From assembly GCF_000348785.1 (NCBI RefSeq), contig NC_020520.1:744001-808000 (forward strand): a stretch of DNA of 64,000 bases, given 5' to 3'. The notes under the pieces were generated by a model. It searched no databases. It worked only from the letters and a program-made list of their open reading frames with translations, and was not told where the DNA came from. Made by a program: the position numbers and the translations under genes. Source of the stretch: Ilumatobacter coccineus YM16-304 (lineage in GTDB: Bacteria; Actinomycetota; Acidimicrobiia; Acidimicrobiales; Ilumatobacteraceae). Shown here in pieces: positions 3,633 to 30,243 of this stretch; the stretch's first letter is position 1; every line of letters starts with the position of its first letter.

Positions 3633-5195
3633 ATGGCGGACATCGCAACTCACAGCAGCAAGCGACCGGGCGGTCGCCGCATTGCACGGCGCAGCCTGTT
3701 CGTCGCGATCGGCGCGTCGCTGGCGGCGACGTCGCTCGCCGCCCCCGCTGATGCGCGTCTGCTCCCGCTCTTCGGCAACGACTCCAAGCCGGCGGCCGAG
3801 CTCGGCTCGATGTACTCCGTCGTCGACCAGATCGGTGCACGGACGCTCTGGGAACGTGGCGTCACCGGCGAGGGTGTCAACGTCGCCGTCATCGACACCG
3901 GCGTCGCCCCGGTCGAAGCGCTGAGCGGCCCCGACAAGGTGATCGCCATGGTCGACCTCTCGGCCGAAGCCGGCGTTCCGGAAGCCGAGTATCTCGACAC
4001 CTACGGGCACGGCACGCACATGACCGGCATCATCGCCGGCCGTACGCCGGGCGCCGACCCGGCCACGTCCGAAGACCACCCCGAATGGTTCCTCGGCGTC
4101 GCACCCGACGCCGGCATCGTGTCGGTGAAGGTCGGTGACAACACGGGCGCCGTCGACGTGTCGCAGGTGATCGCCGGCATCGACTGGGTCGTCGAGTTCC
4201 AGGACGAACTCGACATCAGCGTGCTCAACCTCTCGTTCGGCAGCGACTCCCTGCACACGTACCTGACCGATCCGTTGACGCACGCGGTCGAGCGTGCGTG
4301 GGCCGCAGGCATCGTCGTCGTGGTCGCCGCCGGTAACGACGGTCTCGGCATCGGGCTCAGCTCGCCTGCCACCGACCCCGACGTCATCACCGTCGGCGGG
4401 CTCCGCGCACTCAGCAACACGCGCTACGAGATCCCCGACTGGGCATCCAACGGCAACATCGTCTTGCGCAACCCCGACATCGGCGCTCCCGGCGCGCACA
4501 TCCAGAGCCTCCGCAGCCCGGGCAGTCGCGCCGACGTCGAGCATCCAGAAGGTCGGATCGACGATCAACTCTTCCTCGGTTCGGGATCATCGCAGGCCGC
4601 AGCGGTCACCTCCGGTGCCGCAGCGCTGCTGCTCTCGGAGCGCCCGTGGCTCACCAACGACCAGGTGAAGGATCTGCTCAAGCGCTCGGCCAACTCGCGG
4701 TCGGTTCCGTGGCTCACGCAGATCTACCGCGGCCACGGTGCGCTGCGTGTCGACACGGCGTCACGCCTCTCACCTCGATCCGGACGCCAGTACAATCTGC
4801 CGGCACTGGGCACCGGGACCCTCGATGGCGCACGCGGCACCGCATCGCTCTCGATCGCCGGAATCGAACTGTCGGGCGAGGTGTCGATCGTCGGTGGAGA
4901 CTGGACGGGCGCTCGATGGACCGGCGCACGCTGGACCGCCGGCGAATGGGACGGCGCTCGCTGGACCGGCGGCGAATGGCGCGGTGCCCGATGGACCGAC
5001 GCCACGTGGACCGGCGCTCGTTGGACGGGTGCTCGTTGGACGGGTGCCGACTGGGCCGGCGCACGCTGGACCGGTGAGGAATGGACCGGCTCCTCGTGGT
5101 CGGGTGCTCGTTGGACGGGCGCCCGCTGGACCGGTACCGAGTGGAGCGGTGCTCGCTGGACGGGAACCCGATGGATGTCGACGACCTGGTCCTGA
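3633..5195 (+). CDS. Secreted S8 subtilisin-like serine protease with Trp-pentapeptide tail
   Basis: A 520-residue exported protease. The N-terminus is a probable Tat signal (RRIARRSLFVAIGASLAATS, cleavage after about AAPADA at 41). The catalytic triad is complete: Asp88 in AVIDTG, His126 in YGHGTH, Ser320 in LFLGSGSSQAA, with oxyanion Asn235 in AAGNDG. The usual GTSMA around the Ser is GSSQA. There is no long prodomain. From about residue 423 the chain becomes 20 tryptophans spaced exactly five residues apart (mostly WTGAR, WTGxE, WSGAR), a low-complexity tail likely acting in surface attachment or spacing. Pentad tails of this kind occur on some actinobacterial subtilases, to my recollection. 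Its 3' end overlaps the GGDEF-EAL gene by 25 bp, suggesting translational coupling. Confidence 0.95.
   Translation: MADIATHSSKRPGGRRIARRSLFVAIGASLAATSLAAPADARLLPLFGNDSKPAAELGSMYSVVDQIGARTLWERGVTGEGVNVAVIDTGVAPVEALSGPDKVIAMVDLSAEAGVPEAEYLDTYGHGTHMTGIIAGRTPGADPATSEDHPEWFLGVAPDAGIVSVKVGDNTGAVDVSQVIAGIDWVVEFQDELDISVLNLSFGSDSLHTYLTDPLTHAVERAWAAGIVVVVAAGNDGLGIGLSSPATDPDVITVGGLRALSNTRYEIPDWASNGNIVLRNPDIGAPGAHIQSLRSPGSRADVEHPEGRIDDQLFLGSGSSQAAAVTSGAAALLLSERPWLTNDQVKDLLKRSANSRSVPWLTQIYRGHGALRVDTASRLSPRSGRQYNLPALGTGTLDGARGTASLSIAGIELSGEVSIVGGDWTGARWTGARWTAGEWDGARWTGGEWRGARWTDATWTGARWTGARWTGADWAGARWTGEEWTGSSWSGARWTGARWTGTEWSGARWTGTRWMSTTWS
4900..5192 (+). repeat. 15-bp coding repeat for the WTGAR pentads
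   Basis: Tandem 15-bp units (TGGACCGGCGCTCGC-like) encode the Trp pentads of the subtilase tail. Units vary mostly at wobble positions and at the fourth and fifth residues, so the protein period is kept while the DNA has drifted. Confidence 0.85.
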
Positions 5196-13355: not shown

Positions 13356-15558
<2,203 letters not shown>

Positions 15559-19660: not shown

Positions 19661-21589
19661 TCAGGGTTCGACGAGGTTGGCGCTGTCGAAGTTGTCGAGC
19701 GCAGCGAGGAACGACTGGGCCACACCGCCATCGCCCGCGACCACTGCGATCTTCCCGCTGTCGACGTGATCGCTCCAACGCTCGGGGGCGATGACGACGT
19801 CGACCAACGTCGCCCGATCGACCTCGATGACCACATCGGCCGCACCGGCGTCGTGGCCGGTGAGGTCGTCGTGGTGGATCGTCGAGTTCTCGACCCCGAG
19901 TCGGTGCAGCTCGCCGTCTCCGGCGGGGTCGCCGAGGTCGGTGATGTGCCACACGATCGCCGCGGTCTGCGGGAACCGGGACGGGTCGAAGCGCACGCCC
20001 ATCAGCTCGACGAGCTGTTCGCCCGTCATGCCGTTGAGCATCGCCGGCGGGCCGCCGCGCCCGAGTTGGATCGTGCCGTGTCGGAGCTCGAAGGCGCCCA
20101 TGAGATAGGCGTTGCGCCACGTGCTCGACTCCGACTGGTAGCCCAGCTGCTCCATGGCGTCGGCCGAGAGCCGGCGAGCCTCTCGGTGCTCCGCGTCGTC
20201 GAAGATCACGTGCTTCAACACCTCGACGACCCAGCGGTAGTCGCCCTCGTCGAACGCTCGTTGTGCGCCGCGCATCACGTTGTCGGCGCCGCCCATCATC
20301 TCGACGTAGCGGTGAGCGGCTTCGACCGGCGGATGCGGATGCAGATTGGCCGGGTTGCCGTCGTACCAGCCGAGGTAGCGGTTGTAGACCGAGCGGACGT
20401 TGTGCGACACCGTGCCGTAGTAGCCCTGCACGTGCGACTGTTTCGTGAAGTGCTCGGGCAGTTCGGTGAGCGTGGCAGCGATCTCGTCGGGTGTGTAGCC
20501 GTGGTTGGCGAGCCGCAGCGTCTGGTCGTGCATCCAGCGATACACGTCGCGTTGCAGGGTCAAGAACGCGCGAACGTCGTCGCCGCCGAAGCGTGGCCAG
20601 TGATGGCTCGCGAACATCGTGTCGGTGTGCGACCCCCACATCTGCATCGCCTCGTGGATGTACTTGCTCCACGACAGCGGGTCGCGTACCTGAGCGCCAC
20701 GGATCGGGTACAGGTTGTGCAGCGTGTGCGTGCAGTTCTCGGCCATGCACAGCAGTCGATGGTCGGGGAAGAAGAAGTTCATCTCCGACGGTGCTTCGGC
20801 ATCGGGTGTGTTCTGGAAGACGATGCGCACGCCGTCGACGTCGAGTTCGGTGCCGGTCTCGTGGATCAGCTCGGTCGGGGGCACCAGCCCGGAGGTGCCC
20901 ATCGGCACGGTCTTGCCGAGCCCGGCGTCGACCTGCCCTCGGGGTCCGAACGGCAGCAGCGGTCCGAACTGGTACATCGAACGGCGACCCATGATCGGCC
21001 CGCACAGGATGTTCTCGGCCACCGCTTCGTGCATGAACCCCTCGGGCGCGATCACCCGAACATCGCCGTTGTCGACGGCCTCGCGAGTGGTGACGCCCAA
21101 CATGCCACCGAAGTGGTCGAGGTGGCTGTGGGTGTAGATGACCGCGGTGACGGGCCGAGCGCCGAGTGTGCTGTTCGCGAGCTCCAGGCACTCGCGGGCG
21201 CACTCCTCCGACGTGAGCGGGTCGATGATGAGCCACCCGTTGTCGGCGGCGATGAACGTGATGTTGGAGATGTCGTACCCGCGTGCCTGCCACACGCCGT
21301 CGGACACCTCGAAGAGCCCGTGGATCGCGTTGAGTTTGCCCTGGCGCCAGAGCCCGGGGTGCGACGTGTCGGGCGCCGGGTCGTCGGTGCGCAGGAAGTC
21401 GTGGTGAGCGACGTCCCAGACCGGCCGCCCGTTCTTCTCGATGCGGCCCGTCGCGTGCTGCGCGATCAGGCCGCGCGAGGCGGCGGCGAAGTCGGTGTCG
21501 TCGTCGAAGTCGATCACCGCGGCGCTGTTCCGACGCCGAGTGACATCGCTCGCAGGCTTCGGTTCGAGAGTGGGGTCCGCGTCGGTCAT
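19661..21589 (-). CDS. Alkylsulfatase (metallo-beta-lactamase fold, SdsA1/BDS1-like)
   Basis: A 642-residue enzyme of the linear primary alkylsulfatase group, which cleaves alkyl sulfates such as dodecyl sulfate to alcohol plus sulfate with two zinc ions. The metal motif THSHLDHFGG is at about residues 153-162; further ligand regions are seen in APEGFMHEAVAENI and MAENCTHTLHNLYPIRG. The middle alkylsulfatase dimerisation domain (about 400-520) and a C-terminal SCP2-like domain (about 530-642) complete the usual length. Unlike Pseudomonas SdsA1, I see no signal peptide; the N-terminus MTDADPTLEPKPASD is polar, so it may be cytoplasmic. The call fits a lifestyle with organosulfate use. Confidence 0.93.
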   Translation of the reverse strand: MTDADPTLEPKPASDVTRRRNSAAVIDFDDDTDFAAASRGLIAQHATGRIEKNGRPVWDVAHHDFLRTDDPAPDTSHPGLWRQGKLNAIHGLFEVSDGVWQARGYDISNITFIAADNGWLIIDPLTSEECARECLELANSTLGARPVTAVIYTHSHLDHFGGMLGVTTREAVDNGDVRVIAPEGFMHEAVAENILCGPIMGRRSMYQFGPLLPFGPRGQVDAGLGKTVPMGTSGLVPPTELIHETGTELDVDGVRIVFQNTPDAEAPSEMNFFFPDHRLLCMAENCTHTLHNLYPIRGAQVRDPLSWSKYIHEAMQMWGSHTDTMFASHHWPRFGGDDVRAFLTLQRDVYRWMHDQTLRLANHGYTPDEIAATLTELPEHFTKQSHVQGYYGTVSHNVRSVYNRYLGWYDGNPANLHPHPPVEAAHRYVEMMGGADNVMRGAQRAFDEGDYRWVVEVLKHVIFDDAEHREARRLSADAMEQLGYQSESSTWRNAYLMGAFELRHGTIQLGRGGPPAMLNGMTGEQLVELMGVRFDPSRFPQTAAIVWHITDLGDPAGDGELHRLGVENSTIHHDDLTGHDAGAADVVIEVDRATLVDVVIAPERWSDHVDSGKIAVVAGDGGVAQSFLAALDNFDSANLVEP

Positions 21590-21693: not shown

Positions 21694-21699
21694 GTGGCG

Positions 21700-22182
21700 G
21701 TGACAGACGCCGAGAACCCGACCCCCAGGCTTGCCGGTTGGCGCGAATGGGTGTCGTTTCCGGTGTGGGGTTTCGGTCCGATCAAGGCCAAGCTCGACAC
21801 CGGCGCACGCACCTCTGCCATCCACGCCGTCGACCTCGAATCGTTCGATCGCGACGGAGAGCAGTGGATGCGCTTCACCGTCCATCCGTGGCAGAAGAAC
21901 GACGGCGACGAGATGCGCGTCGAAGCACGCGTCATCGACGAACGAGAGGTCACCAGCTCGTCGGGAACCACGTCGCTGCGACCCGTGGTCGAGACCACGA
22001 TCGACCTCGACGGCCGCAGCCACGTCGTCGAACTCACGCTCACCCGGCGAGACGACATGGGCTTTCGCATGCTCCTCGGACGCGAGGCACTGCGCGGTCG
22101 CTACGTGGTCGACCCCGGGCGCTCGTATCTGACCGGTCGCGCCGACCGGGCCACCCGCCGCAAGAACCGCGAGCGCGCATGA
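21700..22182 (+). CDS. RimB-like retropepsin-fold (ATP-dependent zinc protease family) protein
   Basis: A 160-residue single-domain protein of the PF05618 group, annotated historically as ATP-dependent zinc protease and related to RimB. The core is the aspartyl motif KAKLDTGARTSAIHA (about residues 28-42), a retropepsin-like DTGA, followed by a beta-rich domain ending DDMGFRMLLGREALRGRYVVDP. In Pseudomonas RimB is reported to act on RpsF glutamate tails added by RimK. Here the gene starts an operon: its stop overlaps the next ATG in ATGA at 22179-22182. The GTG at 21700 is chosen by its spacing to TAGCTT. The protease activity is inferred from the family. Confidence 0.88.
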   Translation: MTDAENPTPRLAGWREWVSFPVWGFGPIKAKLDTGARTSAIHAVDLESFDRDGEQWMRFTVHPWQKNDGDEMRVEARVIDEREVTSSSGTTSLRPVVETTIDLDGRSHVVELTLTRRDDMGFRMLLGREALRGRYVVDPGRSYLTGRADRATRRKNRERA

Positions 22183-23249
22183 CCGACGACGTCAGCACCT
22201 CACCGCGCCCCGACGATCGGCCGGCGCTTCGACCTCGACGGTTGCTTCGCCGGCCCGCGTTCTCGATCGGCGACCTCGACGTCAAAGCCGGCTCGTCGGC
22301 GATCGGCGAGCTGCCGATCTCGCGGCTGGTCACCGGCACGCGGATCTCGGTGCCGATCAACGTGCTCCACGGACGTGACGACGGCCCCGTCGTCTGGTTG
22401 AGCGCGGCGGTGCACGGCGACGAGATCGGCGGCGTCGAGATCATTCGGCGTGCGCTCGAGACCGTCGATCCCAAGCAGCTCTCGGGCACCATCGTCGCCG
22501 TTCCGATCGTCAACGTGCACGGCTTCCTGAACGGCGATCGCTACCTGCCCGACCGGCGCGACCTCAACCGTTCGTTCCCCGGGTCGGCCACGGGTTCGCT
22601 CGCCGCCCGCGTGGCGAACCTGTTCATGACCGAGATCGTCGACCGGTGCGACGTCGGCATCGACCTGCACACCGGATCCGACCACCGGATCAATCTGCCG
22701 CAGATCCGGGCCGACCTCGACGACCCGGCCACCCGCGATCTCGCCGTCGCCTTCGGCGCGCCGCTGATGATGCACGCCAAACTGCGCGACGGCTCCATGC
22801 GCGCCGCGGCGACCGCCAGCGGATCGACCGTGCTGCTCTACGAAGGCGGCGAAGCGTGGCGCTACGACCGCGCGGCCATCGAAGCCGGGACGCTCGGGGT
22901 CCGCCGTGTGCTGGCCCGCCTCGGGCTGCTCGACGGCGACGCCGTCGTGCCGTCGCCCGAACCGCCCCTCGAGAGCCGATCGAGCAGTTGGGTTCGAGCC
23001 CGACGCAGCGGGATGGCGCTCATCGAGGTCGAACTCGGCCAACTGGTCGAGCGAGGCGAAACGGTCGCCACGATCCGCGACTCGGTCGGCCGTCGCCTCA
23101 GCACGTCCAACGCACCGCGAGCCGGCATGGTGATCGGCCACGTGCAGCAGCCCCTCGTCAACCAGGGCGACGCCATCATCCACATCGCAGACATCGAGTC
23201 CGCGCCGAACTCCCCATCGGACTCGACGTCCGGAATCGAGGCATCATGA
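22179..23249 (+). CDS. Succinylglutamate desuccinylase/aspartoacylase-family metallo-hydrolase
   Basis: A 356-residue M14-like zinc hydrolase (AstE/AspA family). The zinc motif SAAVHGDEIGGVE (His and Glu ligands) is near residues 67-79, the substrate Arg/Asn region RRDLNRSFPGS near 125-135, the third ligand His in VGIDLHTGSDH near 163, and a catalytic-Glu candidate in YEGGEAWRY. A C-terminal beta domain (about 260-340) resembles a biotinyl/lipoyl-like barrel, as in other AstE relatives. It is joined at both ends by 4-bp ATGA overlaps to the RimB-like and RimK genes, so its substrate is probably connected to RimK glutamylation rather than arginine catabolism; no other ast genes are present. 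Confidence 0.9.
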   Translation: MTDDVSTSPRPDDRPALRPRRLLRRPAFSIGDLDVKAGSSAIGELPISRLVTGTRISVPINVLHGRDDGPVVWLSAAVHGDEIGGVEIIRRALETVDPKQLSGTIVAVPIVNVHGFLNGDRYLPDRRDLNRSFPGSATGSLAARVANLFMTEIVDRCDVGIDLHTGSDHRINLPQIRADLDDPATRDLAVAFGAPLMMHAKLRDGSMRAAATASGSTVLLYEGGEAWRYDRAAIEAGTLGVRRVLARLGLLDGDAVVPSPEPPLESRSSSWVRARRSGMALIEVELGQLVERGETVATIRDSVGRRLSTSNAPRAGMVIGHVQQPLVNQGDAIIHIADIESAPNSPSDSTSGIEAS

Positions 23250-24442
23250 AACTGGCCATCCTCTCCCGCTCGCCCGGCGCGTACAGCACGCACCGACTCA
23301 AGTCGGCGGCGCTCGAACGCGGCCACGACTGCAAGGTGCTCAACACGCTGCGCTTTGCGATCGATCTCTCCGGTGACGAGCCCGACCTGCAGTTCCGCGG
23401 TCGGCAGCTCTCCGACTACGACGCGATCCTGCCGCGCATCGGCGCGTCGATCACGTACTTCGGAACCGCGGTCGTGCGCCAGTTCGAGCAGATGGACGTG
23501 TACACGCCGAACACGGCGAACGGCATCGCCAACTCGCGTGACAAGCTGCGCGCCACGCAGATCCTGAGTCGCCACGAGATCGGCATGCCCGCCACGACCT
23601 TCGTGCGCGACAAGGCCGACGTGCTGCCCGCGATCGAGTTGGTCGGCGGCGCACCCGTGGTGATCAAGCTGTTGGAAGGCACGCAAGGAATCGGTGTGAT
23701 CCTGGCGCCCGACAAGAAAGTCGCCGAGGCGATCATCGAGACGTTGCAGTCGACCAAGCAGAACGTGCTGATCCAGCAGTTCATCGCCGAGAGCCGAGGT
23801 CGTGACATCCGCGCGCTCGTCGTCGGCGACCGTGTCGTCGGCGCGATGCGTCGCACCGCGCAGGGCGACGAGTTCCGCTCCAACGTGCACCGCGGCGGCT
23901 CGGTCGAAGCGGTCGAGCTCACCCCGGAGTACGAGCGAACCGCGGTGCGCGCGGCGCAGATCATGGGGTTGCGCGTCGCCGGTGTCGACATGCTCGAAGG
24001 TGCCGACGGGCCCTTGGTGATGGAGGTCAACTCGTCGCCGGGTCTCGAGGGCATCGAGCGAGCCACCGACCTCGACATCGCCGGCGCGATCATCGACCAC
24101 ATCGCGAACCAGGTCGACTTCCCGGAGCTCGACGTGCGTCAGCGCCTCTCGGTCAGCACGGGCTACGGCGTCGCCGAACTCCTGGTCCGAGAGGGAGCCG
24201 ACCTGGTCGGCACGACGATCGCCGAATCGGGCTTGCGTGAGCGCGACATCACCGTGCTCACGCTGCATCGCGACACCGACGTCATCCCCAACCCGAAGAC
24301 GAGTCGAGTGCTCGAGGCGAACGACCGACTGTTGTGCTTCGGCAAGCTCGACGAGATGCGCGACATGATCCCGGCCCGCCGCAAGCGCCGCGCCAAGATC
24401 CGCAAGCTTCCCGCCGACGCGATTCCCGAAGCCACCGACTGA
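23246..24442 (+). CDS. rimK: RimK-like ATP-grasp glutamate ligase fused to a TrkA-C domain
   Basis: A 398-residue protein. Residues 1-300 match RimK: KLAILSRSP start, PRIGASITYFGTAVVRQFE, the ATP-binding PVVIKLLEGTQGIGV loop, and Mg ligands in GVDMLEG and VMEVNSSPGLEGIE. RimK adds glutamate residues to a protein C-terminus, classically ribosomal protein S6. About 75 extra residues (roughly 305-380) form a TrkA-C/RCK-C-like domain (VAELLVREGADLVGTTIAESGLRERDITVLTLHR and NDRLLCFGKLDEM in order), normally a ligand-binding module on K+ channels and transporters. The fusion suggests allosteric control by a small molecule. The ATG overlaps the previous stop. Basic residues at the extreme C-terminus may contact RNA. 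Confidence 0.92.
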   Translation: MKLAILSRSPGAYSTHRLKSAALERGHDCKVLNTLRFAIDLSGDEPDLQFRGRQLSDYDAILPRIGASITYFGTAVVRQFEQMDVYTPNTANGIANSRDKLRATQILSRHEIGMPATTFVRDKADVLPAIELVGGAPVVIKLLEGTQGIGVILAPDKKVAEAIIETLQSTKQNVLIQQFIAESRGRDIRALVVGDRVVGAMRRTAQGDEFRSNVHRGGSVEAVELTPEYERTAVRAAQIMGLRVAGVDMLEGADGPLVMEVNSSPGLEGIERATDLDIAGAIIDHIANQVDFPELDVRQRLSVSTGYGVAELLVREGADLVGTTIAESGLRERDITVLTLHRDTDVIPNPKTSRVLEANDRLLCFGKLDEMRDMIPARRKRRAKIRKLPADAIPEATD

Positions 24443-24486: not shown

Positions 24487-24894
24487 TCAGTCGTTGGCGT
24501 CGAACACGTCGAAGCCCGCCTGTTGACCCTGGATCAGGTGATCGTCGATGTCGCAGACGACCCGGTAGGCGCCGGCGTCGTCGAAGGTGACGGTCACCGA
24601 TCGGACCGCTCCGGGCGGGATCCGTTCGGTCATCCCGAGCACCCGATTGTTCGCGTCCCACACCTCCATCTGGTGTTCGAGGTCGCCTCCGTTGCGGACC
24701 TCGAACTCGATCGTGTCGCCAGCGCGGATCGTGATGGCCTCGTCGGCCTGGAAGCGGTATTCGACGGCTTCCAGCGACACCGTTCGAGGAGGACCCGACG
24801 CGCCGCCGCTCTCCGACCCGCCGCAGCCGGCCGACGCGCCGATGACCGCGATCGGGAGCAGGATCAGGGCGAGGCGATGACCGAGATTGCGCAC
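24487..24894 (-). CDS. Cupredoxin-like lipoprotein
   Basis: A 135-residue exported lipoprotein: a hydrophobic signal (LGHRLALILLPIAVIG) ends in the lipobox SAGC, followed by a Gly/Ser linker and a single cupredoxin beta-barrel. Candidate type 1 copper ligands are the His in GGDLEHQMEVWD and the Cys and His in VVCDIDDHLIQGQ. The spacing is C-x4-H-x4-Q, so the axial position usually held by Met is Gln, as in stellacyanins. The likely role is small-redox electron transfer or copper binding at the cell surface. I take the GTG at 24894 because CACACT lies 6 nt upstream and the signal peptide then starts normally; an ATG at 24918 would add eight residues. Confidence 0.75.
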   Translation of the reverse strand: MRNLGHRLALILLPIAVIGASAGCGGSESGGASGPPRTVSLEAVEYRFQADEAITIRAGDTIEFEVRNGGDLEHQMEVWDANNRVLGMTERIPPGAVRSVTVTFDDAGAYRVVCDIDDHLIQGQQAGFDVFDAND

Positions 24895-25068
24895 CGTGTC
24901 AGTGTGGCAGGCGCCCATGGCCGGTGGGCCTTCACGGCCCGAAACGTGCCACTCTGACAGTGACCATCAGCGACCCGCGGGTGGGTGATGACGGCGACTG
25001 TCGCCGAGCCGTTTCGGCGCGCCGGGTATCCACCTCCCGGCGCCGGACATCTGTGATGATGGGCGGTG

Positions 25069-29955: not shown

Positions 29956-30243
29956 CGAGGCGATTTCTGCCCAGGCAAATTGTCGTCGCGTGAGGGTGAT
30001 TTCTGCCCAGGCCAAATGTCGTCGTGTGAGGGTGATTTTTGCCCAGGCAAATTGTCGTCGCGTGGAGATGATTTTTGGCCAGGCAAATTGTCGTCGCGTG
30101 GAGATGATTTTTGGCCAGGCAAATTGTCGTCGCGTGGGGGTGATTTTTGGCCAGGCTCGTTGTGGTCGCGTGGGGGTGATTTTTGGCCAGGCTCGTTGTG
30201 GTCGCGTGGGGGTGATTTTTGCCCAGGCTCGTTGTGGTCGGGT
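29956..30243. repeat. 36-bp tandem repeat array B (8 units)
   Basis: Eight exact 36-bp units start at 29956 and every 36 bp to 30208. The final base of the last unit is the first base of the TCA stop codon (minus-strand TGA) of the haloalkane dehalogenase gene. Consensus and orientation match array A. Left units carry GCAAATTGTCGTCG or CCAAATGTCGTCG, right units carry GGCTCGTTGTGGTCG; array A shows the same left-to-right change, so the two arrays look like copies of one ancestral array. The core TTTGCCCAGGCAAA is self-complementary apart from its two central bases. The array ends 26 bp before the predicted -10 of the downstream minus-strand gene. Confidence 0.95.

Follow-up and report, generated by a model that had tools for sequence, protein, structure and literature searches.

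The closest described counterparts of the system reported here are the RimK/RimB operon of Pseudomonas and the RimK of Escherichia coli, organisms in which RimK glutamylates ribosomal protein S6 (RpsF). Pseudomonas RimK is under the control of separate partners and of cyclic di-GMP (c-di-GMP); the accessible part of PMC10092738 reports the residues of that enzyme in contact with ADP and with the glutamate chain, the stimulation of its ATPase by c-di-GMP and not by cyclic di-AMP (c-di-AMP), and the presence of rimA in only some Pseudomonas. Here we describe a three-gene operon in a 64,000-nucleotide stretch of the Ilumatobacter coccineus YM16-304 genome (the window; C1:744001-808000 of the 4,830,181-base, single-contig host genome), which encodes a RimB-like protease, an AstE-like hydrolase and a RimK-type alpha-L-glutamate ligase bearing a C-terminal RCK_C (TrkA_C) domain, here termed RimK-RCK. 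The RCK_C-fused RimK is a real, widespread and apparently uncharacterised variant of RimK, and it occurs in organisms whose S6, the known target, is mostly without an acidic end, which poses the questions of the RimK acceptor and of the RCK_C ligand. As for the locus as a whole, we consider the chances about even that it constitutes a module for writing and erasing glutamate chains with a built-in allosteric domain, an arrangement that would make glutamate-chain synthesis directly responsive to an ion or a nucleotide.

The ligase gene (23246..24442, + strand, ATG start) encodes 398 residues and was assigned by Pfam, NCBIfam and fold comparison. Residues 1-286 (23246..24103) make up the RimK core, comprising the pre-ATP-grasp and ATP-grasp domains, and match the Pfam models Rimk_N (4.1e-34) and RimK (6.3e-60) as well as the NCBIfam family model TIGR00768 (253.2 bits, above the cut-off of 143.4); the score against the S6-ligase equivalog PRK10446, 326 bits, falls just below its cut-off of 331. 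An AlphaFold2 model of the whole protein (42 aligned sequences) has a mean predicted local distance difference test score (pLDDT) of 81.7 and is weak at the linker, residues 292-302, and also at 376-381 and 395-398. Its core superposes on P. aeruginosa RimK (7qyr) with Z 36.9 and a root-mean-square deviation of 1.8 over 291 aligned residues, 52% of which are identical; identity to E. coli RimK is 47% over 286 residues and to Pseudomonas RimK ~52-54%. Residues that contact the ligands in the Pseudomonas enzyme are retained. Of the ADP contacts, K141, F210, S212 and N213 are each unchanged in at least 98 of the 99 fused cores; 98 cores have I or V at position 180, and position 178 is variable. 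An alignment count of the glutamate-chain contacts finds S7, S14, R64, S68, R189 and N262 in all 99 and R8 in 93.

Beyond the core, residues 309-373 (24170..24364) match TrkA_C (PF02080; 5.5e-10, 39.4 bits, cut-off 27), which together with the fold matches bears out the RCK_C/TrkA_C assignment made in the preliminary description; no TrkA_N domain was found in RimK-RCK by Pfam. When this part is modelled alone the mean pLDDT is 82.3, with no ten-residue block between 11 and 70 below 90, and the model matches the RCK domains of MthK, a Pyrococcus channel-related protein, KtrA and KhtT (with c-di-AMP) and BusR, at Z 9.0-11.3 among the 50 matches listed (VIA). The top ranks are occupied by calcium-gated MthK and a Pyrococcus protein, and the fold therefore does not single out one ligand; two further RCK entries are titled 'with cda', and we take these to be CpaA. 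An Arg/Lys-rich tail (residues ~377-396; 24374..24433, partly of low pLDDT) follows the domain. In 102 of 103 fused proteins, those in which the anchor motif at the RCK_C end was found, the net charge over the 12 residues past that motif has a median of +7 and a range of +2 to +8.

The two partner genes lie upstream on the same strand, with ATGA overlaps at both junctions. The first (21694..22182, GTG start, 162 residues) encodes a RimB-like retropepsin-fold protease that matches Zn_protease (PF05618, 2.5e-35), scores 118.5 bits against the RimB equivalog NF052261, below its cut-off of 200, and has 9g59 as its closest solved chain (2.4e-17). Its DTGA motif (D35 T36 G37 A38) is invariant in all 10 aligned sequences, the window's included. 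The second (22179..23249, ATG start, 356 residues) encodes an AstE/AspA-type zinc hydrolase (AstE_AspA_cat, PF24827, 3.9e-39), for which the scores against the equivalogs AstE (succinylglutamate desuccinylase; 17.3 bits, cut-off 305.65) and DoeB (98.5 bits, cut-off 402.7) are low and the closest solved chain is DoeB 6twl (4.6e-23). Residues H79, E82, H164 and E222 and the stretch D128-L-N-R131 are invariant in all 9 aligned sequences, again with the window's own among them, in keeping with the H-x2-E ... H plus Glu signature of the superfamily's catalytic domain.

The idea of a fused architecture peculiar to this genome is not supported, as it extends well beyond it. When the RCK_C part was used to scan named genomes, at least 593 stretches were obtained, at least 566 of them confirmed, and the best 80 loci were kept, a set biased to close relatives in which one gene may count twice. 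RimK is fused from residue 1 in 77 of these best 80 loci, and the other three end at a contig edge. Represented among the kept loci are Nocardioides, Agromyces, Microbacterium, Leifsonia, Knoellia, Agrococcus and Ilumatobacter, together with contigs labelled Spirochaetota (4), Planctomycetota (3) and Acidobacteriota (2), bearing in mind that phylum labels of metagenome-assembled contigs may be wrong. The closest named relatives of the window, in searches and in the core tree, are from Ilumatobacter and other Acidimicrobiia. Identity of the fused protein is 68-91% in eight other Acidimicrobiia proteins (first alignment) and 73-81% in the nine loci with spirochaete, planctomycete or acidobacteriote labels, and such conservation across the class and other phylum-labelled loci argues that the architecture is not due to chance. 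RimK was found at 1e-30 in 86 of 296 genomes of the class, 24 of them with the fused form (6 of the 24 hold both forms) and 62 with the unfused form only, in a count read by hand in which the fused gene of one genome (G204) is split over two contigs. The thought that the fusion might simply be the standard RimK of its class was thus partly right, as it is common there; no known function for it was found. Of 296 Actinomycetota genomes that are 90% complete or more, 36 have a match at 1e-40; 19 of these carry the fused form, and 2 of the 19 have both forms. A plasmid search at E 1e-60 returned 37 records, none spanning 80% of the query, and no full-length fused copy was seen among them.

A quick maximum-likelihood tree of the core alone, rooted on E. 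coli RimK, places all 79 fused rows on one side of one branch (support of 100 in the Shimodaira-Hasegawa-like approximate likelihood ratio test, SH-aLRT), with one label change. The tree has 96 rows, left from 118 cores by a 95% identity filter after two sequences (L134 and L270) had been dropped, and several long end branches were flagged. The stem of the fused clade is long (1.3 changes per column), and 14 core positions are fixed differently between fused and unfused RimK. This combination of a single clade, a long stem and differently fixed positions looks like the outcome of one old fusion that founded a distinct RimK subfamily. Eight genomes (G099, G103, G197, G270, G293, G306, G498 and G565) hold both fused and unfused RimK, which suggests that the two forms have separate jobs.

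RimB is an almost constant companion of RimK: somewhere in the genome, a RimB-family gene above the Pfam cut-off is present in 44 of the 47 genomes with the fused form and 15 of the 16 with only the unfused form, but in none of 17 that lack RimK. Of the three fused exceptions, one (G032) shows a weak fragment at the edge of a contig and two (G050, G316) have none; the host itself has a single RimK ATP-grasp match and a single RimB-family match. For gene neighbourhoods, loci were taken as well covered when both flanks reached 1.5 kb or more in named loci, or 1.47 kb or more in sampled loci (counted by hand), so that 12 of 80 named, 8 sampled fused and 2 of 18 unfused loci with short flanks were set aside. 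In the 68 named fused loci, a set biased to close relatives, 61 have RimB and 35 have AstE, in every case no more than 1.5 kb away; among the 16 unfused loci RimB is near in 8 and AstE in 9. As both partners also lie near unfused RimK, their association is independent of the fusion: RimB accompanies RimK generally and AstE in about half of the cases, and the AstE partner is not specific to the fusion. Where RimB does not adjoin the fused gene it is usually encoded elsewhere in the genome (e.g., G472, G454 and G498). Gene order and strand vary, with RimB divergent from RimK in Nocardioides and Agromyces loci. Beyond the two largest clusters, which contain RimK, RimB and AstE, no gene family occurs in more than 11 of the 80 loci, as judged by a rough clustering (45 clusters listed) of frames of at least 60 codons that included antisense frames and merged several families in cluster 0.

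Ribosomal protein S6, the target expected from the described systems, ends in ...RRGMAVETA in this host, which is not acidic, as compared with ...GDSEE in E. coli. Over 51 genomes with fused RimK, the last S6 residue is Glu in 3 and Glu or Asp in 12, an acidic residue lies within the last two positions in 18, and the last residue is non-acidic in 39. Elsewhere, Glu or Asp is last in 11 of 31 unfused-only genomes, 2 of 20 RimK-less genomes and neither of two genomes with both forms. The count leaves out G507 (S6 cut by the contig end), G602 (S6 place and tail the same as in G418) and five genomes with no S6 match (G032, G381, G596, G103 and G293), treats G498 and G565 apart, and includes four genomes that also hold an unfused copy (G099, G197, G270 and G306). 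An acidic S6 end was considered as a mark of the fused group and rejected, since it does not separate fused from unfused genomes (12/51 versus 11/31). The sections of PMC4741518 consulted report that P. fluorescens RpsF with a D139K substitution, at the penultimate residue, is left unmodified by RimK of either SBW25 or E. coli, and those of PMC11957791 state that some S6 proteins lack a terminal Glu and that RimK may serve other functions. With S6 ends mostly non-acidic, S6 is an unlikely acceptor in this host, though not in every host, and the RpsF glutamylation envisaged in the preliminary description is weakened.

We propose the following scheme. RimK-RCK would attach L-glutamate, alpha-linked, to the carboxylate of an acceptor or to a polyglutamate chain that is being extended. 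The RimB-like retropepsin would make internal cuts in this chain, and the AstE-like hydrolase, a member of a superfamily active on amino-acid amides that bear a free carboxylate, would trim terminal residues. The RCK_C domain of one subunit may pair with its copy in another subunit of a RimK tetramer and provide an allosteric input, in the role that a separate regulator, RimA with c-di-GMP, has in Pseudomonas. The acceptor in most hosts, including this one, is probably free polyglutamate or a protein other than S6. In favor of such a module are the domains and their intact active sites, the glutamate-chain contacts, the single clade, the co-occurrence with RimB, the closeness of RimB and AstE to RimK in the named loci, the RCK_C fold, the S6 ends and the genomes with both forms of RimK; the intact catalytic signatures and the RimB-family gene that almost every genome with the fused form contains also support the original idea of a write/erase set. 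A more ambitious version, which we put forward tentatively and consider rather doubtful, is that RimK-RCK is a ligand-gated polyglutamate synthetase of at least four phyla, coupling a potassium or osmotic signal, sensed as an ion or nucleotide on the RCK_C dimer, to alpha-polyglutamate storage or tagging with a target that is not S6.

Several observations weigh against the proposed write/erase module. The two partners do not always adjoin RimK: RimB is near in 18 and AstE in 17 of the 27 well-covered sampled fused loci, and neither partner is near in 5. The RCK_C, lacking its RCK_N half, may do no more than mediate oligomerisation. Several of the two-form genomes are drafts, and the fused copy of one of them (G565) has an in-frame stop. 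S6 is Asp-ended in all four spirochaetes read and Asp- or Glu-ended in both planctomycetes and in one of the two acidobacteriotes with an S6 match, and S6 may be the target in such hosts. Unfused-only genomes also often lack an acidic S6 end, so the S6-end test does not single out the fused group, and D139K is a substitution that adds a positive charge, unlike a neutral S6 end.

Several of these points lend themselves to the best-surviving alternative, that RimK-RCK performs ordinary S6 glutamylation as in E. coli and Pseudomonas, with the RCK_C domain and basic tail serving only to dock the enzyme on the ribosome or to set its oligomeric state. A core ~47-54% identical to the E. coli and Pseudomonas enzymes with a conserved glutamate-chain site, a strongly basic tail and the acidic S6 ends of the spirochaete and planctomycete hosts all fit this explanation, yet the VETA end of the host S6, the non-acidic last residue in most fused-RimK genomes and the loss of modification in D139K RpsF make it unlikely.

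A further alternative concerns the ligand. RCK_C domains elsewhere bind c-di-AMP in the dimer cleft, as described for BusR in the accessible part of PMC8517857 and in that of the review PMC10243994, and the RCK_C of RimK-RCK could be a c-di-AMP receptor that ties polyglutamate synthesis to potassium and osmotic state. Complexes of KhtT, KtrA and BusR with c-di-AMP are among the fold matches, besides the two 'with cda' entries, a hand alignment to BusR and KhtT suggests that the hydrophobic positions of the pocket are similar in RimK-RCK, and the host has one strong match to the DAC family. The same alignment, however, indicates that the polar rim residues N157 and H160 of BusR are apparently replaced by Gly and mostly Glu/Asp, and the first fold ranks belong to other proteins. 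Nor did gene distribution provide a link: within the class, 21 of the 24 genomes with the fused form carry a DAC gene, as do 58 of the 62 that have only the unfused form and 156 of the 210 that have no RimK (read by hand), so that DAC is not enriched with the fusion, and three fused genomes have no DAC match (G227, 97% complete; G305, 95%; G316, 84%). Given the differing rim, the lack of enrichment and the fused genomes without DAC, c-di-AMP is a possible ligand that we do not favor, and we rate this explanation as improbable. In the host genome itself, four DAC-family matches lie above the cut-off (L276-L279; C1:4202739, 2017657, 632099 and 3252727), one strong (8.5e-26) and three weak (6e-10 to 3e-8); most genomes in the DAC listing have one match.

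Mammalian RIMKL enzymes join glutamate to a small acid or peptide, and RimK-RCK might likewise act in a small-molecule pathway, its product hydrolysed by AstE and a peptide form processed by RimB. The small N-acetyl amino acid deacetylase DoeB as closest solved relative of the AstE-like protein, the intact H-E-H plus Glu signature of the latter and its proximity to RimK in 35 of 68 named and 17 of 27 sampled fused loci speak for such a pathway, but the near-constant presence of RimB, of a peptide-cutting family, the conserved polyglutamate contacts and the scarcity of further shared neighbours leave it little likelihood.

With respect to its surroundings, the operon is bounded by an alkyl-sulfatase-like gene upstream (19661-21589, - strand), divergent from it, and by a cupredoxin-like gene downstream (24487-24918, - strand), convergent with it; because both neighbours are on the opposite strand, the operon consists of exactly three genes. 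The operon of the preliminary description, with its ATGA overlaps and three families, is therefore upheld, with the correction that it starts at 21694 and not at 21700. No rimA (EAL phosphodiesterase) gene is found in the operon or in these two flanking positions. The alkyl-sulfatase-like protein consists of metallo-beta-lactamase, dimerisation and C-terminal domains. Elsewhere in the window, two 36-base tandem repeat arrays with similar consensus units lie ~29 kb apart, at 478-709 (6.4 copies, 88% matches) and 29962-30228 (7.4 copies, 92%), and other short tandem arrays lie at 4902-5175 and 14884-15025 (periods 15/45 and 9).

No paper pointing to a RimK-RCK_C fusion was found among the listings examined from the open-licence literature, a scope outside which most subscription papers fall, and there is no Pfam or NCBIfam model for the fused form among the matches listed. 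RimK neighbourhoods are reportedly discussed by Iyer et al. in their 2009 work on ATP-grasp amidoligases. The term 'TrkA' is absent from the accessible parts of PMC10092738 and PMC11957791. Since the domain pair must already show in public domain databases, the fusion is probably unstudied rather than unseen. Among known systems, the Rlo operon of P. aeruginosa (RloABC) likewise combines a retropepsin and an ATP-grasp protein, but there RloA is a secreted and RloB a membrane protein, according to the available part of PMC12239564, and no such membrane gene is present in the operon here. The RCK_C domains of KtrA, KhtT, BusR and MthK share family and fold with that of RimK-RCK, but sit in potassium transport or transcription proteins, whereas here the domain is fused to an ATP-grasp ligase. 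E. coli RimK (b0852) has the same ATP-grasp core but is a protein of 300 residues without RCK_C, and its annotated neighbours are nfsA and ybjN, with no RimB or AstE. The Pseudomonas RimK/RimB operon is similar in encoding a RimB-family protease beside a RimK whose core and polyglutamate site are conserved; the operon described here differs in the RCK_C domain and basic tail carried by RimK, in its AstE-like hydrolase, in the absence of rimA and in a host S6 with a non-acidic end.

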